Source: Trichomonas vaginalis G3 (taxonomy: Eukaryota; Parabasalia; Trichomonadida; Trichomonadidae). Taken from it: a DNA stretch of 64,000 bases. Under the pieces are notes generated by a model. The model worked only from the letters and a program-made list of their open reading frames with translations, had not been told where the DNA came from and made no database searches. Positions within the stretch are counted from its first letter, which is position 1; the number at the start of each line of letters is the position of its first letter. The translations under genes were made by a program, and so were the position numbers. The stretch is taken from the NCBI RefSeq assembly GCF_026262505.1, contig NC_067203.1, positions 21,557,411 to 21,621,410 on the forward strand, in the 5' to 3' direction. Below, piece after piece: positions 17,530 through 55,723 of the stretch.

Positions 17530-17905
17530 CTGTCGGAAGGAAGGACTTTTCCTGTTGGAAGGAAGGACTTTTCCTGTTGGAAGGAAAAATTTTTCCTGTT
17601 GGAAGGAAGAGTTCTTCCTGTCGGAAGGAAAATTTTTTCCTGTTGGAAGGAAAATTTTTTCCTGTTGGAAGGAAAATTTTTTCCTGTTGGAAGGAAAATT
17701 TTTTCCTGAAGTTCGACCAAAAAGTTCTCAATTTTCGAAAATTTGAATGGTTTACGGACGGACAACTGGAAAAATTTTTCCTGTTGGAAGGAAAATTTTT
17801 TCCTGTTGGAAGGAAAATTTTTTCCTGTTGGAAGGAAAATTTTTTCCTGTCGGAAGGAAGAGTTCTTCCTGTCGGAAGGAAATTTTTTTCCTGTCGGAAG
17901 GAAGG
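17530..17905. repeat. 22-bp tandem repeat array (GGAAGGAAAATTTTTTCCTG type)
   Basis: About 15 units in two blocks split by a unique stretch (17705-17770). Each unit contains the palindrome GGAAAATTTTTTCC, with variants GGAAGGACTTTTCC and GGAAGAGTTCTTCC that keep the two-fold symmetry. Because 22 is not a multiple of three and no unit contains a stop, long frames are open on both strands; I treat them as repeat artefacts. It is flanked by the CGTCGGACATTCGTTTGTG box that also borders the arrays in element A. Confidence 0.9.
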
Positions 17906-17998: not shown

Positions 17999-18856
17999 CT
18001 ACTCTACTTGTTTGAAGTTGTCAAAATACTCTGTTATTTTTTCTTTCAGTAGCGGCAAATCTTCTTTGAATGTAAGTATTGTACAACCTTTCATATCATA
18101 GTGTGTTTGAGGTAAAGTATCTTGAACTATTTGTTTCACATCTTCATTTGGTGTCATTGAAATCGGTAAGTTTTCGCGATAGAACCAATTTCTGTTAGAT
18201 TTGTAAATCTTAGCAAGGTCGTAAAAGCTTTTGTTGTTTCTTCTGACTAAATGCAACATAACCATATCTCTGTCTTCTTCATTTTCCATCTCTTCAGTAT
18301 AAATCATATACTTATAGTTCTTTTCCTTTCCTTTTGGTACCGAACGTGGTATTCTTTTCTGAATGTTTTTGTCTTTTGCTTCAAGCTTGTTCTCTAGCTC
18401 TTCACGTTCTTGTCTATGAATTTCGTCAAGAAGTCTGTAAATATACCAAGCATAACGAGGCGAAGCCCACATTGCAACAGCATTTACAAGAAGTCTATGT
18501 ACATACCAGCCTCTCAAACCATTTGGCAATTTTTCACGATTTTCATAGAGTTTTGGCGACTGGGGTTTTTCTCCCACTCGCTGTTCTTCACTGTTTTCAT
18601 GAGTTTTAGGCGACCCCGAAAAAAGTCTGTCTCGCTGTGCTTCATTTAATAGTTCAATAGTGCTTTGGTTCCTAAACCAGTCTTTAGGAAGCTTGGTATC
18701 TGGTGCAAAACATGCTGTCAAAATACTTTGCATTTGGTACATATCGTCTTTGACCGAACGAATGAGACGTAACTGTTTGTTATACTGTATGTACTCGTAT
18801 TCTTCATTTATGGCTTCATGAACGATAGCAGTTGTTGTGTTCTCGGTTGTTGACAT
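17999..18856 (-). CDS. KilA-N domain protein with hairpin-cassette loop and conserved C-terminal domain
   Basis: ATG 18856 (MSTTENTTTAIVHEAINEE) is preferred; a TTG upstream extends the frame. Residues about 20-140 are a KilA-N type DNA-binding domain closing with WYVHRLLVNAVAMWASPRYA. A coiled coil follows (EELENKLEAKDKN), then a C-terminal domain (IPRSVPKGKEKNYKYMIYTE to the end) resembling DUF3627-type tails of poxvirus/NCLDV KilA-N proteins. The loop before YVHR contains two cassettes (RDRLFSGSPKTHENSEE and RVGEKPQSPKLYENREK) that also occur in the array at 19700-19860. Probably a transcription or replication regulator. Paralogs: 35505-35894 and 35984-36810. Confidence 0.75.
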   Translation of the reverse strand: MSTTENTTTAIVHEAINEEYEYIQYNKQLRLIRSVKDDMYQMQSILTACFAPDTKLPKDWFRNQSTIELLNEAQRDRLFSGSPKTHENSEEQRVGEKPQSPKLYENREKLPNGLRGWYVHRLLVNAVAMWASPRYAWYIYRLLDEIHRQEREELENKLEAKDKNIQKRIPRSVPKGKEKNYKYMIYTEEMENEEDRDMVMLHLVRRNNKSFYDLAKIYKSNRNWFYRENLPISMTPNEDVKQIVQDTLPQTHYDMKGCTILTFKEDLPLLKEKITEYFDNFKQVE

Positions 18857-18944
18857 ATCTGTCTTTACATACAAAATAAAAAAAATATTTTATAAAAAAT
18901 TAGCGTTATTTTCTTACTTTCACAAAAGACCAAAAATAAACGCT

Positions 18945-19556
18945 TTACATGTATTTTTCAGCAACTTCGTCAAATAATTTTATAGCTTTACCTATCTCAT
19001 CTACTTCAAACGTTTCTTTACCTTTCGTGGGAGCACCATACATTTTCTCAAACTTTTCAAGTAGTTCTGTTTCTGCAGCTCTCATATTGTTAACAAACAC
19101 AACCTTAACTCTATTGACTATACTGTCATATCTTTGAGTTATATTATATGTTCTTCCTATCTTATATCTCTTTGTATTGAAGTCCTTCGGTTTCTGAACG
19201 ATGTAAAGTAAGCCTTCACTGCAACGTTCCGTATCGAATGAACCATATGTTATGAAGTTATATCCAACAACTGGGTCTAACCATAACAAAACTATTGGTA
19301 TAAGACTTTTGTCGATGAGATATGCTGCAGTTCCATAGAATCTTACCGATATCATCAGCTCAGGATTTCTTGTCAAAATATTCTGAGTAGAAGCATTTTT
19401 AACCCAGTCCTTTGCTTTCTTTCCAAATGGAGATAAAATGTCTGACAAAGAATATTTCTTGTATTTCTTTGAGTATCTTACGTTTAAATCACCAATTCTA
19501 ACCACTTTGGTGTTATTGTCTATCTTTCTAACTGTTTCAAACTCAGTGTTTGTCAT
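18945..19556 (-). CDS. KilA-N-like plus T5orf172/MUG113 GIY-YIG nuclease-like protein
   Basis: 203 aa from an ATG. The N-terminal half (VRIGDLNVRYSKKYKKYSLS... IDKSLIPIVLLWLDP) follows a KilA-N/MSV199-like pattern. The C-terminal half has GLLYIVQKPKDFNTKRYKIGRTYN, the GIY-YIG-family YIV...KIGRT signature, then AAETELLEKFEKMYG and KETFEVDE, typical of T5orf172/MUG113 domains. Likely a DNA-binding nuclease of the homing type. In element A the equivalent sequence is fused to another protein (33787-35091). Confidence 0.65.
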   Translation of the reverse strand: MTNTEFETVRKIDNNTKVVRIGDLNVRYSKKYKKYSLSDILSPFGKKAKDWVKNASTQNILTRNPELMISVRFYGTAAYLIDKSLIPIVLLWLDPVVGYNFITYGSFDTERCSEGLLYIVQKPKDFNTKRYKIGRTYNITQRYDSIVNRVKVVFVNNMRAAETELLEKFEKMYGAPTKGKETFEVDEIGKAIKLFDEVAEKYM

Positions 19557-20420
19557 TTTCTGTCTTTACATACAAAATAAAAAATATTTTTTAAAAAAAA
19601 CTAACGTTATTTTTTTATTTTGTATAAAAGATATGATTTCAGGGATTTTTTTGACGAAGTGCAAAAGTTCTCTTCGTAAAAATATAACAGTTATATAATG
19701 AAATTTGGTCATTTTTTTACTGTTTTCATGAGTTTTAGGCGACCCCGGAAAAAGTCGGGGTCGCAATTTTTCACGATTTTCATGAGTTTTAGGCGACTAC
19801 GGTTTTTTCCCTACTCGCAATTTTTTACGATTTTCATGAGTTTTAGGCGAGTAAGATTTTCTATCTTGTATAAAAGATATGATTTCAGGGATTTTTTTTT
19901 ACGAAGTGCAAAAGTTCTCTTCGTAAAAATATAACAGTTATATAATGAAATTTGGTCATTTTTTTTACGATTTTCGTACGGAATCTCTACCCTCGGTTTT
20001 CCGCGGGTAGCAAACCTATGAGGAAATTCATGAAATTTGGTCATTTTTTCACGATTTTCATACGGAATCTCGACCCTCGGTTTTCCTCGGGTCGCAAACA
20101 TATGAGGAAATTCATGAAATTTGGTCATTTTTTCACGATTTCAGGGATTTTTTTTACGAAGTGCAAAAGTTCTCTTCGTAAAAATATAACAGTTATATAA
20201 TGAAATTTGGTCATTTTTTCACGATTTCAGGGATTTTATGCAAGGCCGAGAATTCTCGGTCTAGAGAAATTTCACTGTTTTCGTACGGAATCTCGTTCCT
20301 CGTTTTTTCGAGGAACGCAAACATATGAGGAAATTCATGATTTTTGGTCATTTTTTTCAGCAAAAATATATTTTAGGTGGAACCAGGTCCCTCGGTCCCT
20401 CGGTCCCTCGGTCAACTAAC
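19557..20420. repeat. array of hairpin cassettes matching KilA-N gene loops
   Basis: No standard gene. Repeated modules: a TTACGAAGTGC...TCTTCGTAA hairpin plus ATAACAGTTATATAATGAAATTTGGTCATT (about 19645, 19890, 20145); SPKTHEN-encoding units with stems GCGACCCCG/CGGGGTCGC (19739-19764); and 84-bp units with the flanks TACGGAATCT and CAAAC-TATGAGGAAATTC around stems CTACCC/GGGTAG (19986), CGACCC/GGGTCG (20070) and CGTTCCTCG/CGAGGAACG (20294). On the minus strand the 84-bp units are in one open frame and encode the same residues as the loop of the KilA-N gene at 35984. A perfect CCGAGAATTCTCGG palindrome lies at 20245. Confidence 0.85.
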
Positions 20421-20925
20421 ATCTTTTTGAAAATGGTGACAACATGACATTTTGACAACAACACAGGAAATAAACTTCATCGTATATGTTTTGTCAAGAC
20501 TTCATCGTCAATGAGCGTAAATCAGACAAAAATATATTTTAGGTGCTACCATGCTACCATGTGCTACCAGGTCAACTAACATCTTTTTGAAAATGGTGAC
20601 AACATGACATTTTGACAACAGTCCAGGAAATAAACTTCATCGTATATGTTTTGTCATGATTTCATCGTATATGCTTTGTCACCTCTTGAATTTTCATGAG
20701 GGTCCCTCGGTCCCTCGGTCCCTCGGTTAAACGAACTTCTTTTGAAAATGGTGACAACATGACATTTTGACAACAGTCCAGGAAATAAACTTCATCGTAT
20801 ATGTTTTGTCAAGACTTCAGGGATTTTTTTGACGAAGTGCAAAAGTTCTCTTCGTCAAAAAAATACAGTTATATAATGAAATTTGGTCATTTTACTCAGC
20901 AAAAATATATTTCTACCATAAAGTT
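20421..20925. repeat. intergenic repeats with TCCCTCGG triplets and repeated ATGACATTTTGACAACA blocks
   Basis: No gene. GGTCCCTCGG-type 9-bp units (20386-20412, 20700-20727) and a block reading GAAAATGGTGACAACATGACATTTTGACAACA (about 20430, 20590, 20745) recur, with CTTCATCGTATATGTTTTGTCA spacers. Variable arms follow an AAAATATATTTT box (GGTGCTACCATGCTACCATG at about 20540). Confidence 0.75.
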
Positions 20926-21822
20926 TTATAAGCGTTTTACATGGTATATGTTGTGATGGTTCATGACTTTAAACAGTTTTGTAGCTTCTATTTCTTCTTT
21001 TAGTATGTCAAAAGTTTTCACAATGCCGAAAGTTTCTTTATATTTCTTCTTGACATCTGAAAGAAGGAAATCGTCAGCTGTTGGATAGTTTTTGTTCAGA
21101 AATGTCAACATGTCCATTTTATCTTCTGCTGGTTTCTCTACTTCTTTCTTTAAGTCAGCATAGTCGTTTCGCATACGTTCTATCTCTTTGACGGAGTAGT
21201 TATATTTCCTTGTTGCTGCTTTACATTTTGAACATTGTGGGTTCATTTTAGCATTGTACATTGAAATTTGTCCTGCAAGTATGACTAAGGCGTAAATGGT
21301 TTTCTTTAACTCAAAGGCTGCTGGTTTTATTTGTCCGTTCCATACTTTACCTCTTCTATCTTTATCTCTTATCTGCCATACACATTTTGCAACTAACGAA
21401 ACAAAGTTGTCGTAGGTCTTAAACTCCTCCGATTTATATATGTCAATGAAATATACCATATCGCAGTCTTTGTGGTTGCAATGAAATCCAAGAAACTCAT
21501 AGTTACTCTTACGTATGAACTTCTTTATTTCTACTGAGTCAGTTGGTCTGACTTCAATTTCATCGAATTCTGGAATTGTAAGCTTTTGTTGTTGTATTTC
21601 AGGAAGTTTAGGTAGATGGTCAATAATATCCTGCATTTCATAAAGATACTGTTCATTTGTTTCATCTTTTGCAGTGCAATCTAAATCTCCTTGGAGAAGT
21701 TCCTGCTTTATCTTCTGGATTTCTGTTTCGAAAGTATATGAAGAAGGAATGAAGCTTTTCATCTCTACTAACATTGAAGTTGGGTTCATGACTAACGAGT
21801 TTGGTGCTGTTGTTGCTAACAT
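20926..21822 (-). CDS. 298-aa accessory protein with CxxC and helical core, unknown function
   Basis: ATG 21822 (MLATTAPNSLVMNPTSMLVE) is chosen because the homolog in element A (33787) starts with the same block; the longer frame reads through a hairpin module. It shows an acidic helical N-terminus, a central HCNHKDCDMVYFIDIYKSEE segment, NPQCSKCKAA (possible half zinc finger), a coiled coil (SVKEIERMRNDYADLKKEVE) and a C-terminal YPTADDFLLSDVKKKYKETF region that looks like a small winged or D5-associated helical domain. Function unknown; clustered with KilA-N genes. Confidence 0.6.
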   Translation of the reverse strand: MLATTAPNSLVMNPTSMLVEMKSFIPSSYTFETEIQKIKQELLQGDLDCTAKDETNEQYLYEMQDIIDHLPKLPEIQQQKLTIPEFDEIEVRPTDSVEIKKFIRKSNYEFLGFHCNHKDCDMVYFIDIYKSEEFKTYDNFVSLVAKCVWQIRDKDRRGKVWNGQIKPAAFELKKTIYALVILAGQISMYNAKMNPQCSKCKAATRKYNYSVKEIERMRNDYADLKKEVEKPAEDKMDMLTFLNKNYPTADDFLLSDVKKKYKETFGIVKTFDILKEEIEATKLFKVMNHHNIYHVKRL

Positions 21823-21879
21823 GTTCTTACAATAAAAATAAAAACTAACTTTATTTTTTATTTCGGGAAAATTCAAGAG

Positions 21880-22082
21880 TTTTGGTTGAAAAATACGGTG
21901 AGCCAAAAGTGGCTCGACCTCAAAACAAGCATTTTGTGAAGAATATACCAACCGCCGGAATTCCGCGGGTTGCTTTTATACAAAATTCAACGGGTGAAAA
22001 AACAGTATAAGACTAGTTCTGAGATCTCACCACTTCACCTAAAATATATTTTTGCCGAATTCAATAAAAAGAAATGGTTCAT
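21880..22082. repeat. intergenic hairpin module with KilA-N loop cassette
   Basis: Contains GAGCCAAAAGTGGCTC (5-bp stem) and a 65-bp block CATTTTGTGAAG...CAACCGCCGGAATTCCGCGGGTTGC...TTTATACAAAATTCA. That block is also inside the KilA-N genes at 22083 and 32764 and in intergenic DNA at 22977 and 31780. It is followed by ATCTCACCACTTCACC and an AAAATATATTTTT box. Confidence 0.8.
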
Positions 22083-22745
22083 TTACTCACAATATTTTTG
22101 TACAAAACGACCCCAAACTTTTAACCTCTCTTCTGCAGCTTCAAATGCTATCTTAGCGAGTTCATATTCTCTAAATTCTCTCTTTAAATCTTCTTGTTCC
22201 CATTGGTCTAGTTCGTATGGAGAATCTCTATAACCAGAACATATCTCACGTTCATGTTCTATTTGTTTTTCGCACATTTTTCTAACTTCTTGTTCGAACA
22301 AAGGTTTAGCATTCTCTACTGTATCTTCAAGTTCTTCTTCATCTAATTTCTCATGAACTTTCTTGTCTATGGAGTCCATAATTTTTCCAACTGCTATGCA
22401 ATATTTTGGAGAAGCCCACATTGCTATATAGTTTACAAGTCTTGGGTCTACATACGTTCCTCTAACCTGTTTGATTTCATCCGGAATTCCTGCATGAATT
22501 TTGTATAAAAAGCAACCCGCGGAATTCCGCGGGTTGGTATATTCTTCACAAAATGCCTTAAAATACTCTTCCCAGGACTTATTTTCCAACAACCTTCTAA
22601 AGTCTTTCCTAAACTGCTGACACATATTTGTTGCATTTATATAACCATCCTTGTCTCTACGTAAGACTTCAATACCGTTGTAAGTGCCTTTTGTGAATGT
22701 TTCGCCATTAGATTTGTTCGTGAACGTTTTTGCTTCGACTGTCAT
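22083..22745 (-). CDS. KilA-N domain protein (220 aa) with palindromic cassette in its loop
   Basis: DNA-binding KilA-N domain: residues 20-65 GTYNGIEVLRRDKDGYINAT and NMCQQFRKDFRRLLENKSWEE, closing with YVDPRLVNYIAMWASPKYC. Residues around 70-83 (TNPRNSAGCFLYK) are encoded by a 22-bp perfect palindrome inside the coding region (22507-22528). The rest is a charged helical tail (KKVHEKLDEEELEDTVENAK). Intact and starting at an ATG 20 bases after a T-rich stretch. Frameshifted paralog at 32764-33431. Likely a regulator; no nuclease motif seen. Confidence 0.8.
   Translation of the reverse strand: MTVEAKTFTNKSNGETFTKGTYNGIEVLRRDKDGYINATNMCQQFRKDFRRLLENKSWEEYFKAFCEEYTNPRNSAGCFLYKIHAGIPDEIKQVRGTYVDPRLVNYIAMWASPKYCIAVGKIMDSIDKKVHEKLDEEELEDTVENAKPLFEQEVRKMCEKQIEHEREICSGYRDSPYELDQWEQEDLKREFREYELAKIAFEAAEERLKVWGRFVQKYCE
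22507..22528. repeat. perfect palindrome inside a KilA-N coding region
   Basis: AACCCGCGGAA and its reverse complement are adjacent, with no loop. Paralogous copies at 32983 (one mismatch), 21950 and 31797 (mismatched) and 22996 (perfect, but with CGCCGG/CCGGCG arms) show the stem changing on both sides. Confidence 0.9.
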
Positions 22746-22779
22746 TTCAGTTCTTACAATAAAAATAAAAAATATTTTT

Positions 22780-23215
22780 GGGTGGTACGTCGGACATTCG
22801 TTTGTGGCTTAACCGTCGGACATTCGTTTGTGGCTTAACCGTCGGACATTGTCTTGAAACAGTACAAGTCTTGTTCTGAGATCTCACCATCTAACCTAAA
22901 ATATATTTTTGCCGAAAAAAATGAGTTTTGGTTGAAAAATACGGTGGAGCCAAAAATGGCTCGACCTCAAAACAAGCATTTTGTGAAGAATATACCAACC
23001 GCCGGAATTCCGGCGGTTGCTTTTTATACAAAATTCAACGGGTGAAAGAATACGATGAAGTCATGACAAAACATTTACGATGAAATCATGACAAAACATA
23101 TACGAAGAAGTTTATTTCTTGGACTGTTGTCTAAATGTCATGTTGTCACACTTTTTCAGAGAAGTTCGTTTAACCGAGGGACCGAGGGACCGAGGGACCT
23201 GGCTCCACCTAAAAT
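22780..23215. repeat. intergenic repeat block
   Basis: No gene. Holds two to three copies of CGTCGGACATTCGTTTGTGG, an AAAATATATTTTTGCCG box, a GGAGCCAAAAATGGCTC hairpin, the 65-bp KilA loop cassette (22977-23040), TACGATGAAATCATGACAAAAC spacers and three ACCGAGGG units (about 23175-23200). Confidence 0.8.
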
Positions 23216-24345: not shown

Positions 24346-25012
24346 TACTCAGAATATTATACAGAATTCAATAAAAATAATGTTTAGGGTAGAAGGTTAG
24401 ATAACCTCTTTTCTAACCTCTTTTCTACCCTCTTGAATTTGTCAAGATTTCTTCGTAAATGTTTTGTCAAGACTTCTTCGTAAATGTTTTGTCAAGACTT
24501 CTTCGTAAATGTTTTGTCAAGACTTCTTCGTAAATGTTTTGTCAAGACTTCTTCGTAAATGTTTTGTCAAGACTTCTTCGTAAAATCAGACAAAAATAAT
24601 GTTTAGGGTAGAAGGTTAGATATAACCTCTTTTCTAACCTCTTTTCTACCCTCTTGAATTTTCATGAAATTTACACCAAAAATATACTACTAGGGTCATT
24701 TACGAAGAAATCTCAACAAAGTCTTTACGATGAAATCTCAACAAAACATAGACAAGAAAGTTCATGAGAAATTAGATGAAGAAGTCTTAACAAAGTCTTT
24801 ACGAAGAAATTCATGAAAATTCAAGAGGGTAGAAAAGAGGTTAGAAAAGAGGTTATATCTAACCTTCTACCCTAAAATATATTTTTGGGTCATTTACACT
24901 CATTTACGAAGAAATCTCAACAAAGTCTTTACGAAGAAGTCACAATAAAACGTCTGTCAAAAACCGCTTTTCTGTCACTTTTCAGGAAAAAAACATTTTT
25001 ATTGTATATAAA
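24346..25012. repeat. subterminal repeats of the left arm
   Basis: Three imperfect hairpins of the GGGTAGAAGGTTAGAT...TTCTACCC type (24388, 24606, inverted at 24829) and six tandem 25-bp units CTTCGTAAATGTTTTGTCAA (about 24470-24590). Further TTTACGAAGAAATC spacers follow. The corresponding right-arm stretch is 45915-46690. Confidence 0.85.
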
Positions 25013-31489: not shown

Positions 31490-31636
31490 ATGCTTCGGGT
31501 TGAAAAACAAAGAACAAAAGTAGCAGATACAAAACAAACATTTTATGAGCTTACAAAGGGTGTTATGAATGAATTCAGCAACATACATCCTGACCTCGTT
31601 CATTTTGTTGCTAAATTCAGTAAAAATATATTTTAG
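31490..31636 (+). pseudogene. truncated paralog of the 48257-type protein (N-terminal 48 codons)
   Basis: Starts in the standard context (TATTTTTACATATATTAA) with MLRVEKQRTKVADTKQ, nearly the N-terminus of the 48257-48907 protein (MLQVEKQRTKVVDTKP). It loses similarity after about 16 codons and stops inside an AAAATATATTTTAG box. The left arm has been cut here and joined to the repeat block. Confidence 0.7.
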
Positions 31637-31899
31637 GTGAAGAGGTGAGATTTCACCTCTTTTTTCACCTGTTTTTTCACCCTCATGAATTTTCATGAAT
31701 TTTGTGCTGAATTCGACAAAAATGAGTTTTTGGTTGAAAGAATACGGTGGAGCCAAAAGTGGCTCGACCTCAAAACAAGCATTTTGTGAAGAATATACCA
31801 ACCCGCGGAATTCGGCGGGTTGCTTTTTATACAAAGTTCAACAGGTGAATTTTCATGAATTTCCTTAAGATAGAAAAAAAGTGAGTTAAAATGAGATGT
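31637..31899. repeat. intergenic hairpin modules
   Basis: GGTGAAGAGGTGAGATTTCACC...TTCACC hairpin (a different arm sequence on the same scaffold as the GGGTAGAA modules), a GGAGCCAAAAGTGGCTC stem and the 65-bp KilA loop cassette (31780-31845) with a one-mismatch CCCGCGGAATTCGGCGGG stem. No gene. Confidence 0.8.
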
Positions 31900-32265
31900 T
31901 TACTGAACTGGCTGAATGCCGCCTTCTGTAGTTATGTAGAATGGTTGACCAGAGAAGTGGAACAGTGCTCTGAGAATTTGTATAATTCGTGGAATTGGAC
32001 TCTCTCTGTTTGGTATTTTTATCCAAGGACGCTTGGCAAAGAACTTAACAAGAGCTTCTCTTTTGGCGTCCTTTATGTCGTCGAAAGGAGTGTTTTCTGG
32101 TATTTGAATTGGAATTCCGGTTTCAATTTCGATTTTCAGCGCACCTCTTCCAGACAACCAGAAGCCGAGGGACTTGTTGGCTTTGTCCTTGCCCAAATAC
32201 TGCTTAACAACTTCATTTATCTCTATAAGGTAAATTGCCTCATCTAATGGCTCGATGTTGTCCAT
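31900..32265 (-). CDS. 121-aa protein of unknown function
   Basis: ATG 32265 (MDNIEPLDEAIYLIEINEVV). Central GFWLSGRGALKIEIETGIPI and a basic helix KDAKREALVKFFAKRPWIKI. A 33-codon relative of the first part is at 36821-36922 (ELDPLDEAIYLIEINELVKD). Each lies immediately beside a 21/22-bp repeat array, with the gene start facing the array. No family recognised; the repeated association with the arrays is the only clue. Confidence 0.5.
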   Translation of the reverse strand: MDNIEPLDEAIYLIEINEVVKQYLGKDKANKSLGFWLSGRGALKIEIETGIPIQIPENTPFDDIKDAKREALVKFFAKRPWIKIPNRESPIPRIIQILRALFHFSGQPFYITTEGGIQPVQ

Positions 32266-32269
32266 TGTA

Positions 32270-32690
32270 CTTTTTCAGAACAATACTTGTACTGTTTCAG
32301 AACAATACTTGTACTTTTTCAGAACAAGACTTGTACTTTTTCAGAACAAGACTTGTACTTTTTCAGAACAATACTTGTACTTTTTCAGAACAATACTTGT
32401 ACTTTTTCAGAACAAGACTTGTACTTTTTCAGAACAAATTTCCCGTAAAAGCTCTCAATTTGTGAGAAAAATTTTCTGTTTCAGAACAAGACTTGTACTT
32501 TTTCAGAACAATACTTGTACTGTTTCAGAACAATACTTGTACTTTTTCAGAACAAGACTTGCACTGCTTCAGAACAATATTTGTACTGTTTCAGAACAAT
32601 ATTTGTACTGTTTCAAGACAATATTTGTACTGTTTCAAGACAATATTTGCACTGCTTCAGAACAATATTTGTACTTTTTCAAGACAATGT
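32270..32690. repeat. 22-bp tandem repeat array (TTGTACTTTTTCAGAACAAT type)
   Basis: About 18 units, each with an ACAA-TAC/GAC-TTGT dyad. A unique spacer lies at 32430-32475. Variants GTACTGTTTCAGAACAA and CACTGCTTCAGAACAA occur. All frames are open because the unit lacks stops; the ORFs are artefacts. The right border is the GTCCGACGGTTAAGCC/CACAAACGAATGTCCGACG box. Confidence 0.9.
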
Positions 32691-32763
32691 CCGACGGTTA
32701 AGCCACAAACGAATGTCCGACGGTTAAGCCAAAAATATTTTTTATTTTTATTGTAAGAACAGT

Positions 32764-33431
32764 ATGTCAGTCGAAGCAAAAACGTTCACGAACAAATCTA
32801 ATGGCGAAACATTCACAAAAGGCACTTACAACGGTATTGAAGTCTTACGTAGAGACAAGGATGGTTATATAAATGTAACAAATATGTGTCAGCAGTTTAG
32901 GAAAGACTTTAGAAAGTTGTTGGAAAATAAGTCCTGGGAAGAGTATTATACGGCATTTTGTGAAGAATATACCAACCGCCGGAATTCCGACGGTTGCTTT
33001 TTATACAAAGTTCATGCAGGAATTCCTGATGAAATCAAACAGGTTAGAGGAACGTATGTAGACCCAAGACTCGTAAACTATATATTGCAATGTGGGCTTC
33101 TCCAAAATATTGTATAGCAGTTGGAAAAATTCTGGACTCCATAGACAAGAAAGTTCATGAGAAGTTAGATGAAGAAGAAGAACTCGAAGATACAGTAGAA
33201 AATGCTAAACCTTTGTTCGAAGAAGAAGTTAGAAAAATGCATGAAAAACAAATAGAACATGAACGTGAGATATGTTCTGGTTATAGAGACTCTCCATACG
33301 AACTAGACCAATGGGAACAAGAAGATTTAAAGAGAGAATTTAGAGAATATGAACTCGCTAAGATAGCATTAGAAGCTGCAGAAGAGAAGTTAAAAGCTTG
33401 GGGTTGTTTTGTACAAAAATATTGTGAGTAA
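32764..33431 (+). pseudogene. KilA-N domain protein, frameshifted
   Basis: Paralog of 22083-22745 with about 95% identity. A 2-base insertion near 33086 (TATATATTGC against TATATAGC) breaks the frame just before the AMWASPKYC helix. The loop cassette reads TNRRNSDGCFLYK here, with one mismatch in the DNA palindrome. The C-terminal tail (33090-33431) remains open. Confidence 0.85.
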
Positions 33432-33786
33432 ATGAACCATTTTGTTGCTGAATTCAATAAAAATATATTTTAGGGTAGAAGGTTAGATATAACCTGTTTT
33501 CTAACCTCTTTTCTACCCTCTTGAATTTTCATGAATTTCATCGTAAATGTTTTGTCAAGACTTCTTCATAAATGTTTTGTCAAACATGAACGTAAATGTT
33601 TTGTCAAGACTTCTTCATCGTAATGAGTGTAAAGGACCCAAAAATATATTTTAGGGTAGAAGGGTAGCTCTACCCTCTTTTCTACCCTCTTTTCTACCCT
33701 CTTGAATTTTCATGAATTTTCCCGAAATAAAAAATAAAACTAACTTTATTTTATTTATTTTTTTTATTTTGTATAAAAAAATAAAA
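33432..33786. repeat. intergenic hairpin modules
   Basis: Two AAAATATATTTTAGGGTAG modules (33464, 33643). The second has arms GGGTAGAAGGGTAG/CTACCC instead of GGTTAGA/TCTAACC. TCGTAAATGTTTTGTCAAGA spacers lie between. A T-rich stretch (33740-33785) precedes the next ATG. Confidence 0.8.
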
Positions 33787-35091
33787 ATGTCAACAATCGG
33801 CACAACAACAATTCAAACAACTACAGCACCAAACTCTTTAGTCATGAACCCAACTTCAATGTTAGTAGAGATGAAAAGCTTCATTCCTTCTTCATATACT
33901 TTCGAAACAAAAATCCAGAAGATAAAGCAAGAACTTTTAACAAGTAATTTAGACTGTAGTGCGAAAGATGAAACAAATGAACAGTATCTTTATGAAATGC
34001 AGGATATTATTGACCATCTACCTAAACTTCCTGAAATACAACAACAAAAACTAACCATTCCCGAATTTGACGAAATAGAAGTCAGACTGACTGACTCAGT
34101 AGAAATAAAGAAGTTCATACGAAAGGTAAACTATGAATTCCTTGGATTTCATTGCAACCACAAAGTCATGGACATTGACCTTTACAAATCCGAAGAATTT
34201 AAGACCTACGACAACTTTGTTTCGTTAGTTGCAAAATGTGTTTGGGAAATAAGAGATAAAGATAGTAGGGGTAAGGTATGGAACGAACAAATAAAACCCG
34301 CTATGTTCGAGATGAAGAAAACCATTGACGCCTTAGTCATACTAGCAGGTAAGATTTCAATGTACAATGCTAAAATGAACCCACAATGTTCAAAATGTAA
34401 AGCAGCAATGAGGAAATATAACTACTCCGTCAAAGAGATAGAAAGAATGAGAAACGACTATGCAGATTTAAAGACAGAAATGTCAAACAATGAGTTTGAA
34501 ACAGTTGGAAAGATAGACAATGACACCAAAGTGGTTAGAATAGGTGATTTAAACGTAAGATACTCAAAGAAATACAACAAATATTCTTTGTCAGACATTT
34601 TATCTCCATCTGGAAAGAAAGCAAAGGACTGGGTTAGAATTGCTTCTAGTCAGAAAATTTTGACAAGAAATCCTGAGCTTATGATATCGGTAAGATTCTA
34701 TGGAACTACAGCATATCTCATCGACAAAAGTCTTATACCAATAGTTTTGTTATGGTTAGACCCAGTTGTTGGATATAATTTCATAACATATGGTTCGTTC
34801 GACTCAGAACGTTGCAGTGAAGGCTTACTTTACATCGTTCAGAAACCGAAGGACTTCAATACAAAGAGATATAAGATAGGAAGAACATTTAATATAACTC
34901 AAAGATATGACAGTACAGTCAATAGAGTCAAGGTTGTGTTGGTTAACGATATGAGAGCTGCAGAAACAGAACTACTTGAAAAGTTTGAGAAAATGTATGG
35001 TGCTCCCATAAAAGGTAAAGAAACGTTTGAAGTAGATGAGATAGATAAAGCTATAAAATTATTTGACGAAGTTGCTGAAAAATACATGTAA
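33787..35091 (+). CDS. fusion: helical accessory protein plus KilA-N-like/GIY-YIG nuclease
   Basis: 434 aa from ATG 33787 (MSTIGTTTIQTTTAPNSLVM). Residues 1-about 232 correspond to the first three quarters of the 20926-21822 protein, ending at MRNDYADLKTE. The rest, from MSNNEFETVGKIDND, is the whole 18945-19556 protein including YKIGRTFN and KETFEVDE. The retained internal Met marks the junction. The deleted part would contain the last 70 residues of the first protein. The frame is fully open, so a chimera could be made; it is unlikely to be a sequence error. Confidence 0.75.
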   Translation: MSTIGTTTIQTTTAPNSLVMNPTSMLVEMKSFIPSSYTFETKIQKIKQELLTSNLDCSAKDETNEQYLYEMQDIIDHLPKLPEIQQQKLTIPEFDEIEVRLTDSVEIKKFIRKVNYEFLGFHCNHKVMDIDLYKSEEFKTYDNFVSLVAKCVWEIRDKDSRGKVWNEQIKPAMFEMKKTIDALVILAGKISMYNAKMNPQCSKCKAAMRKYNYSVKEIERMRNDYADLKTEMSNNEFETVGKIDNDTKVVRIGDLNVRYSKKYNKYSLSDILSPSGKKAKDWVRIASSQKILTRNPELMISVRFYGTTAYLIDKSLIPIVLLWLDPVVGYNFITYGSFDSERCSEGLLYIVQKPKDFNTKRYKIGRTFNITQRYDSTVNRVKVVLVNDMRAAETELLEKFEKMYGAPIKGKETFEVDEIDKAIKLFDEVAEKYM

Positions 35092-35504
35092 AAATAACGT
35101 TTACCATGTAAAACGCTTATAAAATAACTGGGGTAGAAAAGAGGTTAGAAAACAGGTTATATCTAACCATCTACCCTAAAATATATTTTTTGGTCATTTA
35201 CGCTCATTACGAAGAAGAAGTTTCGACAAAACATATATGAAGAAGTTTCGACAAAACATATATGAAGAAGTCTTGACAAAACATATATGAAGAAGTCTTG
35301 ACAAAACATTTACGATGAAATCATGAAAATTCATGAAAATTCACGAGGGTAGAAAAGAGGTTAGAAAACAGGTTATATCTAACCTTCTACCCTAAAATAT
35401 ATTTTTGCTGAAAAATGACCAAATTTCATGAATTTCCTTAAGATAGAAAAAATAAAGTTAGTTTTTTATAAAATATTTTTTTTATTTTGTATGTAAGAAC
35501 ATAT
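35092..35504. repeat. intergenic hairpin modules
   Basis: Two inverted GGGTAGAAAAGAGGTTAG...TCTAACC-TCTACCC hairpins (35138, 35345) and TATATGAAGAAGTCTTGACA spacers, then a T-rich leader. No gene. Confidence 0.8.
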
Positions 35505-35894
35505 ATGACAACAACAGAGAACACAACAACAGTTATAGTCCATGAAGCTATAAATGAAGAATATGAGTGGGTTCAGTTTAACAAACAGTTACGTCTCATT
35601 CGTTCGGTCAAAGATGACATGTACCAAATGCAAAGTATTTTGACAGCATGTGCTACACCAGATACTAAGAAACCACAAGACTGGTTTGAATTAAATAGCA
35701 CTCATGAACTTTTGAGTGAGTTCGAACATGTAGAACTTAAAAAGATGTACCAAGACAGACAAAACTTACCATCGTATCTAAAAGGTATATATGTTCATAA
35801 GTTCCTAGTTAGTTCAATAGCAATGTGGGCTTCACCTCGCTATGCTTGGTATATTTACAGACTTCTTGACGAAGTTGCTGAAAAATACATGTAA
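35505..35894 (+). CDS. short KilA-N protein with tail borrowed from the GIY-YIG gene
   Basis: 129 aa, ATG 35505 (MTTTENTTTVIVHEAINEEY). The KilA-N domain matches the 17999 and 35984 proteins to WASPRYAWYIYRLLDE, then ends VAEKYM, which is exactly the end of the GIY-YIG proteins (LFDEVAEKYM). The DNA match continues past the stop into the 3' flank (TGTAAAGCGTTTATTTTTGG). Its loop (SEFEHVELKKMYQDRQNLPS) has no hairpin cassette. A recombination at the shared LxDE codons explains the chimera. Confidence 0.7.
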   Translation: MTTTENTTTVIVHEAINEEYEWVQFNKQLRLIRSVKDDMYQMQSILTACATPDTKKPQDWFELNSTHELLSEFEHVELKKMYQDRQNLPSYLKGIYVHKFLVSSIAMWASPRYAWYIYRLLDEVAEKYM

Positions 35895-35983
35895 AGCGTT
35901 TATTTTTGGTCTTTTATACAAGATAGAAAAAATAAAGTTAATTTTATTTTTTTTATTTTTTTATTTTGTATGTAAAGACAGAT

Positions 35984-36810
35984 ATGTCAACAACAGAGAA
36001 CACAACAACAGTTATAGTCCATGAAGCCATAAATGAAGAATACGAGTACATACAGTATAACAAACAGTTACGTCTCATTCGTTCAGTCAAAGATGACATG
36101 TACCAAATGCAAAGTATTTTGAATACTCTTCGTTCTACAAAGCAAGCACGTCATTGGTTTGAAAACCAACAGACAAAAGAACTTTTAGAAGAATTTCCTC
36201 ATATGTTTGCGAGTGGTAGAAAACCGCGGAACGAGATTCCGTACGAAAATCGTAAAAATTTGCCAAATAGTTTGAAAGGATATTATGTTCATAGACTTCT
36301 TGTAAATGCTGTTGCAATGTGGGCTTCGCCTCGTTACGCTTTTATATTTTCATGATGTTAGATGAAATTCATAGACAAGAACGTGAAGAGATGGAAAAGA
36401 AACTTCATGCAAAAGATGAAGTCATTGAAGCAAAAGACAAAACCATACAGAAAAGAATACCACGTTCGGTACCAAAAGGAAAGGAAAAGAACTATAAGTA
36501 TATGATTTATACTGAAGAGATGGAAAATGAAGAAGATAAAGATATGGTTATGTTGCATTTAGTCAGAAGAAACAACAAAAGCTTTTACGACCTTGCTAAG
36601 ATTTACAAATCTGACAGAAATTGGTTCTATCGCGAAAACTTACCGATTTCAATGACACCAAATGAAGATGTGAAACAAATAGTTCAAGATACGTTACCTC
36701 AAACACACTATGATATTAAAGGTTGTACAATACTTACCTTCAAAGAAGATTTGCCATTGTTAAAGGAAAAAATAACAGAGTATTTTGACAACTTTAAACA
36801 AGTAGGGTAA
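35984..36810 (+). pseudogene. KilA-N protein with hairpin-cassette loop, frameshifted
   Basis: ATG 35984 (MSTTENTTTVIVHEAINEEY). The loop before YYVHRLLVNAVAMWASPRYA contains EEFPHMFASGRKPRNEIPYE NRKN, the same residues and frame as the 84-bp units at 19985-20120. A frame change at about 36340 separates this from the coiled coil and C-terminal domain (IPRSVPKGKEKNYKYM to 36810), which match the 17999 protein. Confidence 0.8.
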
Positions 36811-36929: not shown

Positions 36930-37490
36930 CAGTACAATATTGTACTTTTTCAAGACAATGTTGTATAAATTCAGTACAATATTGTACTTTTTCAAGACAA
37001 TGTTGTATAAATTCAGTACAATATTGTACTTTTTCAGAACAATGTTGTATAAATTCAGAACAATGTTGTATAAATTCAGTACAATGTCTCTCAAATTTGA
37101 GTACGGCTGTACTTTTTCAGAACAAGTCTTGAACTTTTTCAGAACAATGTTGTACTTTTTCAAGACAATGTTGTACTTTTTCAAGACAATGTTGTACTTT
37201 TTCAAGACAATGTTGTACTTTTTCAGAACAATGTTGTATAAATTCAGTACAATATTGTACTTTTTCAGAACAATGTTGTATAAATTCAGTACAATGTCTC
37301 TCAAATTTGAGTACGGCTGTACTTTTTCAGAACAAGTCTTGAACTTTTTCAGAACAATGTTGTACTTTTTCAAGACAATGTTGTACTTTTTCAAGACAAT
37401 GTTGTACTTTTTCAAGACAATGTTGTACTTTTTCAAGACAATATTGTACTTTTTCAAGACAATATTATATTGTTTCAGAACAAAGACGGT
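36930..37490. repeat. 21-bp tandem repeat array (TTGTACTTTTTCAAGACAATG type)
   Basis: About 26 units including TTGTATAAATTCAGTACAATA variants, with a larger internal duplication (37085-37150 and 37290-37350 share ATGTCTCTCAAATTTGAGTA). Since 21 is a multiple of three, frames on both strands give 7-residue repeats (such as KYNIVLK); I treat these as artefacts. The right border carries the same CACAAACGAATGTCCGACG box as the other arrays. Confidence 0.9.
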
Positions 37491-37504
37491 TAAGACACAA
37501 ACGA

Positions 37505-37693
37505 ATGTCCGACGTACCACCAACCGAGTCCATTCCAAAGCCAGAAGAACCGACAGCCCCAGCACCACAACAGACTAAGACTCAAACTCTTACATTTTTA
37601 CGCTTGACTTTTTACAATTTGAACTTTGTTCGCGTAGATGTGAATTCTGAAAGAAGTATGAGGGTCTTGTATGACTTTGTACTTCTCCCATAG
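37505..37693 (+). CDS. possible 62-aa Pro/Glu-rich protein antisense to the ATPase 3' end
   Basis: Counterpart of 17330-17518: MSDVPPTESIPKPEEPTAPA, same length and stop. Substitutions in the non-overlapping part are conservative in composition. Translation is unproven. Confidence 0.3.
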   Translation: MSDVPPTESIPKPEEPTAPAPQQTKTQTLTFLRLTFYNLNFVRVDVNSERSMRVLYDFVLLP

Positions 37694-45914: not shown

Positions 45915-46690
45915 TTTATATACAATAAAAATGTTTTTTTCCTGAAAAGTGACAGATGTTTTATTGTGACTTCTTCGTAAAGACTTTGTTGTGACTTCTT
46001 CGTAAATGAGTGTAAATGACCCAAAAATATATTTTAGGGTAGAAGGTTAGATATAACCTCTTTTCTAACCTCTTTTCTACCCTCTTGAATTTTCATGAAT
46101 TTCTTCGTAAAGACTTTGTTAAGACTTCTTCATCTAATTTCTCATGAACTTTCTTGTCTATGTTTTGTTGAGATTTCATCGTAAAGACTTTGTTGAGATT
46201 TCTTCGTAAATGACCCTAGTAGTATATTTTTGGTGTAAATTTCATGAAAATTCAAGAGGGTAGAAAAGAGGTTAGAAAAGAGGTTATATCTAACCTTCTA
46301 CCCTAAACATTATTTTTGTCTGATTTTACGATGAAATCTTGACAAAACATTTACGAAGAAGTCTTGACAAAACATTTACGAAGAAGTCTTGACAAAACAT
46401 TTACGAAGAAATCTTGACAAAGTCTTTACGATGAAATCTTGACAAATTCAAGAGGGTAGAAAAGAGGTTAGAAAAGAGGTTATATCTAACCTTCTACCCT
46501 AAACATTATTTTTGTCTGATTTTACGATGAAGTTTTGACAAAGTCTTTACGATGAAGTTTTGACAAAGTCTTTACGATGAAATCTTGACAAAGTCTTTAC
46601 GATGAAATCTTGACAAAGTCTTTACGATGAAATCTTGACAAAACATGAAAAACATATATAATTTGTGAAAAGCTCCTGGAAGACCCGTAT
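45915..46690. repeat. subterminal repeats of the right arm
   Basis: Three GGGTAGAAGGTTAGATATAA-type hairpins (46034, inverted at 46255 and 46455) and a run of 25-bp TTTACGATGAAATCTTGACA units (about 46320-46640). No gene. Confidence 0.85.
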
Positions 46691-54886: not shown

Positions 54887-55723
54887 TTTATATACAATAA
54901 AAATGTTTTTTTCCTGAAAAGTGACAGATGTTTTATTGTGACTTCTTCGTAAAGACTTTGTTGTGACTTCTTCGTAATGAGTGTAAATGACCCAAAAATA
55001 TATTTTAGGTAGAAGGTTAGATATAACCTCTTTTCTAACCTCTTTTCTACCCTCTTGAATTTTCATGAATTTCTTCGTAAAGACTTTGTTAAGACTTCTT
55101 CATCTAATTTCTCATGAACTTTCTTGTCTATTTTGTTGAGATTTCATCGTAAAGACTTTGTTGAGATTTCTTCGTAAATGACCCTAGTAGTATATTTTTG
55201 GTGTAAATTTCATGAAAATTCAAGAGGGTAGAAAAGAGGTTAGAAAAGAGGTTATATCTAACCTTCTACCCTAAACATTATTTTTTGTCTGATTTTACGA
55301 TGAAATCTTGACAAAACATTTACGAAGAAGTCTTGACAAAACATTTACGAAGAAGTCTTGACAAAACATTTACGAAGAAATCTTGACAAAGTCTTTACGA
55401 TGAAATCTTGACAAATTCAAGAGGGTAGAAAAGAGGTATAAAAGAGGTTATATCTAACCTTCTACCCTAAACATTATTTTTGTCTGATTTTACGATGAAG
55501 TTTTGACAAAAGTCTTTACGATGAAGTTTTGACAAAGTCTTTACGTGAAATCTTGACAAAGTCTTTACGATGAAATTGACAAAGTCTTTACGATGAAATC
55601 TTGACAAAACATGAAAAACATATATAATTTGTGAAAAGCTCCTGGAAGACCCGTATATAAGAACTTCATTTCTCCTAAACATCTTCAGGGCTAGAAGGCA
55701 CGAAGTGCCTGGAAGCCCCACTA

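Follow-up and report, generated by a model that had tools for sequence, protein, structure and literature searches.

Palindromic loop cassettes in KilA-N genes of Trichomonas vaginalis Maverick elements and their copies in neighbouring intergenic arrays

The subject of this study is a 64,000-nucleotide stretch (the window) of the Trichomonas vaginalis genome (C1:21557411-21621410; 180,853,573 bases in all, or 180.85 Mb, in 86 contigs), and in particular the KilA-N genes of its Maverick (Polinton) elements and the short hairpin-forming cassettes that these genes have in common with nearby intergenic DNA. Maverick copies in this species number ~5,000 (PMC7845603), and its KilA-N domains more than 1000 (PMC4862756). 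The closest relatives of the window proteins were T. vaginalis G3 proteins, and the KilA-N family (Pfam PF04383) scored above cut-off in 5 of the 8 window proteins scanned. The KilA-N genes of the window form two clusters, at 17.9-23.1 kb and at 31.5-36.8 kb.

KilA-N genes and loop cassettes of the window

Four groups of KilA-N genes were distinguished, A, E, B, and B2 (a paralogue of B), each with a loop directly before a conserved G-x-Y-V/I-H/D strand. In B, B2, and E, a GC-rich palindrome with arms of ~10 bp encodes the loop, and the A hairpin is weak. Gene A (17999-18874, minus strand; PF04383, 2.9e-27), whose relatives are T. vaginalis G3 proteins, has a loop made of two cassettes, RDRLFSGSPKTHEN and SEEQRVGEKPQSPKLYENREK, at 18530-18634 (minus strand; coordinates by counting). 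Gene B (22083-22745, minus strand; PF04383, 8.3e-26) includes a 62-bp B unit at 22495-22556 (minus strand) with the palindrome CAACCCGCGGAATTCCGCGGGTTG at 22513-22536. The second cluster holds another B gene (32764-33431, plus strand; palindrome CAACCGCCGGAATTCCGACGGTTG at 32973-32996) and gene E (35966-36810, plus strand; E loop at 36191-36256, with a degenerate left arm), both broken into two reading frames. Proteins of the B2 group have 221 aa, the sequence 'KEYGRAKSGSTSKQAFYELTKG', and the loop GGTCGAGCCAAAAGTGGCTCGACC, whose DNA reads GGTCGAGCCA-AAAG-TGGCTCGACC in 4 of 8 loci and is an imperfect version of this in the remaining four.

An earlier reading of the window, made from the sequence alone (hereafter the sequence-only reading), had claimed that the gene loops recur in four non-genic places, and loop copies were present in all four. 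A-type ('SPKTHEN') copies at 19703-19850 belong to an array with 54-bp spacing (19703-19886, minus strand; hairpin GCGACCCCGGAAAAAGTCGGGGTCGC on the plus strand at 19739-19764). Three E-type ('EIPYENR') units follow on the minus strand: 19962-20029 and 20035-20113, with 83.8% and 83.5% identity to the loop of gene E, and 20267-20336 (CGTTCCTCG/CGAGGAACG), which also matches this loop in sequence. B-type ('TNPRNSAGCFLYK') copies were found at 21929-21989, 22976-23037, and 31779-31840, each matching gene B over one and the same 62-bp span, with 93.5-96.8% identity. The first of these is part of a unit (21902-21989, plus strand) in which a B2 loop (AKSGSTSKQAF) is fused in frame to a B loop (CEEYTNRRNSAGCF), and the second is part of a unit of the same make-up (22931-23037, plus strand; palindrome CAACCGCCGGAATTCCGGCGGTTG at 22996-23019). 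The three loop types first proposed are thus real, but the types are more numerous: B2 has to be added, and so does an 'ISLDR' cassette, present as an intergenic unit at 20240-20273 (minus strand), in the gene loop of locus L003, and in arrays of other loci. The proposal that SPKTHEN and EIPYENR units keep the reading frame did not always hold for A, as one unit of the window array carries an in-frame stop and, of the 16 A units listed from outside genes, 3 lose the 54-bp register through an extra base.

Across the genome, the B-unit pattern GAATATACCAAC-N(10-20)-GTTGCTTTTTATACAAA had 602 matches (303+299) and its reversed control none, which rules out chance. The unit continued into gene sequence in 96+130 matches and into the intergenic motif TTCA-A/C-C in 193+175, each with a control of 0; 100 rows of either set, among the matches listed, were used for the comparisons below. 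The E unit in its gene context had 95 matches (49+46, all listed; reversed control 0). One place, covered by the overlapping loci L017-L020, holds an 86-bp tandem array of B units in which the palindromic cores take many forms. Interspersed with the cassettes of the window is another repeated hairpin, (T)ACGAAGTG...CTTCGT(A) (19640-19690, 19890-19935, 20145-20190, and 20820-20865), which recurs upstream in L007 and L008; it equals none of the KilA-N loops seen.

Hairpins, paired changes, and turnover of the loop

In intact genes the loop palindrome was the best hairpin of the whole open reading frame (ORF) in 11/11 rows for B (10 different genes, one being present in both L017 and L020) and in 8/8 genes for B2. 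When codons were shuffled (30 times each), the loop hairpin was never equalled in 10/11 B rows and 6/8 B2 genes, and was equalled by 2 or 3 shuffles in the rest. The palindrome starts 26 or 25 residues before G-x-Y-V/I in B and B2 genes and at -23 in an intact E-type gene in L044, where 4/30 codon shuffles equalled it; palindromes thus occupy about the same place (23-26 residues before G-x-Y-V/I-H/D) across different loop sequences. Predicted folding, scored against 200 shuffles, was significant for the unit of gene B (z -5.25, 0/200 as good), for the intergenic B unit at 22931-23037 (z -3.68, 0), and for the A array (z -3.94, 1), while gene A folded no better than its shuffles (z -0.91, 30/200 as good). 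In the loops of B, B2, and E, the palindrome is a property at the level of the DNA.

Scans of viral contigs and genome contigs returned no DNA of relatives from other species, and a protein-level substitute was used: 23 of 39 rows of relatives had loops that could be encoded as palindromes at the maximum of 9 of 9, and other segments of the same proteins were equally good in a share of 0.00-0.33, mostly ~0.1. This is a weak test, as the rows depend on one another and 6 of the 39 come from T. vaginalis B2 proteins.

The arms of the palindrome covary. A 39-nt core of in-frame length was present in 91 of the 95 E gene copies, with 37 distinct cores overall, and the 33 distinct in-frame cores formed 275 of 330 possible Watson-Crick pairs; with reassigned arms the number was 238.2 (sd 5.8), and 0/5000 reassignments were as high. 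The paired changes replace both residues encoded by the arms, from F-N to S-D, T-V or S-E. Covariation among distinct B cores was weaker, the observed value being reached in 302/5000 reassignments for genes and 10/5000 for arrays. The spacer was found inverted between otherwise equal copies: AAAA has become TTTT in 1 of the 95 E gene copies (C3:17843034), and CCCGCGGAAAACAGCGGG is present as its reverse complement in 2/100 B copies among the matches listed.

That the loop is variable, as the sequence-only reading had it, was borne out by an alignment of 17 B genes, in which the core was the most variable part (nucleotide diversity pi 0.141 vs 0.031 in both outer flanks) between shoulders with pi of 0.000 (left) and 0.052 (right); the next separate peak, 0.112, was the last window of the alignment. 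In group A, pairs of proteins differing at no more than 2 of 228 flank residues had different loops in 35/49 cases and different loop lengths in 13/49, which points to fast turnover. A-group loops are modular: 114 of 120 listed proteins could be parsed, with an N part of 70 residues in 113/114, a loop of 21, 33, 39, 40 or 51 residues, and a part after the loop that varies in length (176 residues in 93/114). The steps in loop length mostly equal an 18-residue (54-bp) cassette or portions of it. In P0221, the loop is a chimera of an A-type left half joined to an E-type right half.

Four-gamete violations were counted in 24/44 comparisons between core and left flank, 7/16 between core and right flank, and 31/44 across the core, and likewise within the left (51/105) and right (67/153) flanks. 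They are spread along the whole gene, and the core is therefore no clear recombination hot spot. On a tree of the 17 B genes computed without the unit, core alleles were scattered over the clades, many of which had low support. A separate observation was made in L014 (~1013, minus strand), where a B unit follows 3' coding sequence of a B gene (AAGAAAGTTCATGAGAAATTAGATGAAGAA); read by eye, the junction resembles recombination at a short stretch that also occurs in the array linker.

Explanations for palindromes and arrays

The explanation I favour, with a probability of roughly 55%, is that template switching keeps the arms matched and rewrites the loop, and that recombination shuffles and amplifies the resulting cassettes. 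If, during copying of the element, the template were switched from one arm of the inverted repeat to the other, the arms would come to match again and the spacer would at times be inverted, so that several wing residues would be replaced in one step. Single strands, expected from Polinton biology when a Maverick is replicated by its own polymerase, would favour such switching. Unequal or ectopic exchange among the many loops would add, drop, and swap cassettes, and gene loops do show that cassettes have been gained, lost, and combined into chimeras. The arrays would have arisen from duplicates of KilA-N genes, worn down to the loop and multiplied through the same exchange; they may return variants to the genes, although the data do not require it.

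Template switching is favoured because matched arms and inverted spacers are its expected products. Homogenised arms and inverted spacers are its mark in coding genes as well (PMC8604942; PMC8794818), it produces stretches of amino-acid changes in coding genes of yeast (PMC8604942), and it can maintain paired stems (PMC8794818). The loops resemble these published inverted repeats in homogenised arms, spacer inversion, multi-residue replacement in coding DNA, and maintained hairpins, with arms kept complementary through matched changes in E and less clearly in B. They differ in that the events described in these sources lie in many unrelated genes, whereas here one homologous loop of DNA-binding genes is affected in several groups and has amplified non-coding copies.

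Several points weigh against this explanation. Covariation would also result if a hairpin, in DNA or in RNA, were under selection, the arm-reassignment test (0/5000 for E) makes no correction for relatedness, and covariation among B gene cores was weak, with 302/5000 reassignments equalling it. Mismatched intermediates are common (for example, one mismatched pair in 7/95 E copies), and the simultaneous change of both arms is inferred. The hairpin of A genes was no better than codon shuffles, with 10-30 of 30 equalling the best score in 8/9 A/E genes, and the best hairpin of the ORF was other than the cassette in 4/9 of these. The degenerate gene E allele of the window (z -1.49, 17/200 as good) and the second E-type array unit (fold of 20031-20120, z -1.50, 20/200) did not fold significantly. 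Decay of duplicated genes alone, moreover, does not account for loops that persist longer than the remainder of the gene.

From their sequence context, the array units are most likely the eroded loops of duplicated KilA-N genes. In relatives from Tritrichomonas, Histomonas, and metagenomes, the shoulder residues F, E, and Y of the B unit show little or no variation, and E and Y were also conserved in a second comparison of relatives; because the shoulder codons are conserved in other species, the B unit belongs to the gene and was not inserted into it. Each of the three window B units follows a B2 loop in frame ('...GGAKSGSTSKQAF' joined to 'CEEYTN...'), and the second cluster contains pieces of a B2 pseudogene at 31529-31642 (plus strand; the part after the loop; tblastn with P0004, 2.4e-10) and 31695-31790, the latter being a remnant up to the loop that is fused in frame to the B unit at 31779-31840 (31695-31840 in all, plus strand). 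Locus L003 has an intact gene with a truncated KilA-N copy, carrying three cassettes, upstream of it, and in L005-L008 the cassette arrays stop ~70-80 bp before the ATG. Flanks were counted in A/E and B2 loci, chosen mostly by their KilA-N score; B loci, chosen by their unit and with one gene doubled, were left out. A/E cassettes lay within 900 bp upstream of 7/9 A/E genes, with 28/28 matches on the strand of the gene, and within 900 bp downstream of 0/9, and 0/8 B2 genes had their own cassette upstream. The sequence-only reading had held that units which always extend into other KilA-N sequence would be mere gene remnants, and several do extend in this way, which speaks in part against that reading.

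The alternative that survives best, though I consider it unlikely, is a dedicated donor system in which silent array cassettes are copied into the neighbouring KilA-N gene and alter its DNA-binding wing. Borrelia vlsE and Anaplasma msp2 are silent-cassette systems of antigenic variation, and the likeness lies in a variable core, conserved shoulders, and partial silent copies beside a complete gene, all of which were found here; the differences are that here the loop belongs to the DNA-binding protein of a mobile element, that the cores are palindromic, and that directed donation is a possibility. Conserved shoulders and a variable core occur in gene and array alike, the arrays in L003 and L005-L008 lie directly upstream of the gene and are co-oriented with it, and some intact genes have chimeric or multi-cassette loops (P0221, for example). 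Among 63 gene units, 33 had an intergenic unit (TTCA-A/C-C type) within 1.5 kb, and the core allele equalled that of the nearest array unit in 16 of the 33, against 7.1 expected (0/20,000 permutations), one of the concordant alleles being rare (C2:19359095). However, a spacing of exactly 563 bp is found in 5 of the 33 pairs, all of them concordant; these probably derive from a single copied element, so co-descent may account for the concordance, which was not accepted as proof of donation. Recombination gave no such proof either, four-gamete violations being spread along the gene with no clear hot spot in the core. Certain cores of the arrays are seldom found in genes, those of the CCACC type being present in 9/100 intergenic rows vs 1/100 gene rows among the matches listed, other gene copies would suffice as donors, and 1 of 3,183 ORFs of the class 'Kil-A_N-terminal_domain_protein_1' was above the expression threshold in RNA-Seq, with 2,546 covered by small RNAs (PMC7845603, Table 2). 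What stands of the sequence-only reading, which took the arrays for donors or landing sites, is that loop and array have cassettes in common, that the loop is variable, and that arrays adjoin genes; donor use of the arrays is possible, and the landing sites are not supported, as the shoulders are conserved gene codons and several units run into KilA-N pseudogene sequence.

Less probable still is that the palindromes are operators, bound by KilA-N proteins upstream of and inside their own genes for self-regulation. In several A/E genes palindromes lie shortly before the start, a second copy is found within coding sequence, the KilA-N domain binds DNA and its relative PCG2 reads the GC palindrome core CGCG with its wing (PMC4333399), and the 86-bp arrays at the one place covered by L017-L020 are regular. 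The stem sequence varies while pairing is kept, though, which fits a structure or a process better than a fixed recognition sequence; the absence of own cassettes upstream of the B2 genes and the near silence of KilA-N genes in the published survey (PMC7845603) also speak against operators.

Rickettsia palindromic elements are read in frame inside proteins and also occur outside genes. Independent mobile palindromes of this kind (RPE, REP or MITE-like), inserted in frame in KilA-N genes and in intergenic DNA, would account for short palindromic units with sharp ends that are in frame in genes and abundant outside, and for a B unit that ends near the outer stem of the predicted fold, but were rejected as very improbable: the shoulders are ancestral codons, which largely refutes the idea, the neighbours of the units are KilA-N remnants, the material examined showed no empty site, and the palindrome belongs to an ancestral gene loop. 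Three loop probes had no match below E = 0.02 outside the two KilA-N clusters of the window, and no insertion into unrelated coding sequence was seen with these probes, which covered the window and not unrelated genes elsewhere in the genome. The adenine-only variation of diversity-generating retroelements was not found in E cores either, as their changes involve all bases and are paired.

Other features of the window were recorded alongside. A B-gene helical fragment (DKKVHEKLDEE...) is fused to repeat sequence in three copies outside both KilA-N clusters (24733-24855, plus strand; 46054-46176 and 55024-55140, minus strand). Just upstream of gene E lies a short chimeric KilA-N gene (35487-35894, plus strand), whose terminal DEVAEKYM is the end of a T5orf172 gene; a single 459-aa ORF with DUF3839 and T5orf172 domains lies at 33712-35091 (plus strand), and the other element has the two as separate genes (18945-19556 and 20926-21822). 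An inverted repeat, AGGGTAGAAGGTTAG...CTTTTCTACCCT, has many copies (24386-24873, 33472-33700, 35346-35393, 46036-46500, and 55225-55468), and other tandem arrays of palindromic units (GGAAGGAAAATTTTTTCC, AGAACAAGACTTGTACT, and ACAATGTTGTACT types) lie between Maverick genes at 17560-17900, 32255-32701, and 36940-37578.

The DNA-binding wing and what its rewriting may mean

In PCG2, an APSES relative of KilA-N, the QXGXGXXQ motif of the wing (82-89) reads CGCG in the minor groove (PMC4333399; PMC4862756). The KilA-N loop, which precedes the conserved G-x-[YW]-V or G-x-Y-V/I, probably corresponds in position to this wing (PMC4333399), the two being equated by motif only; searches of solved structures gave no KilA-N or APSES match. 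Given that KilA-N genes were nearly silent in the RNA-Seq survey (PMC7845603), any function would act where the elements are active, be it in certain conditions or strains.

The elements and genes are the same as those of the published accounts, with thousands of copies (PMC7845603; PMC4862756), and the passages of these two papers drawn on here do not mention palindromic loops or cassette arrays. Among the best-ranked titles and abstracts from the open-licence PMC literature (the top 6 to 20 of up to 884 hits; subscription papers and preprints being outside this scope), there was no description of a palindromic wing-cassette system.

If the wing determines specificity as it does in PCG2, rewriting of a palindrome would offer a mobile element a simple route to alter the target of its regulator. 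Covariation in coding DNA here follows DNA pairing and thereby couples amino-acid positions (F-N, S-D, T-V), and the 602 B-unit matches and 95 E gene copies make up a natural data set of genome scale for separating template switching from selection. It is doubtful that Mavericks carry a targeted diversification system for the wing of a transcription factor, made of palindromes rewritten by replication and silent donor arrays derived from KilA-N genes; if they do, the elements would keep changing their DNA-binding specificity and might, for instance, evade repression from sister elements or the host.

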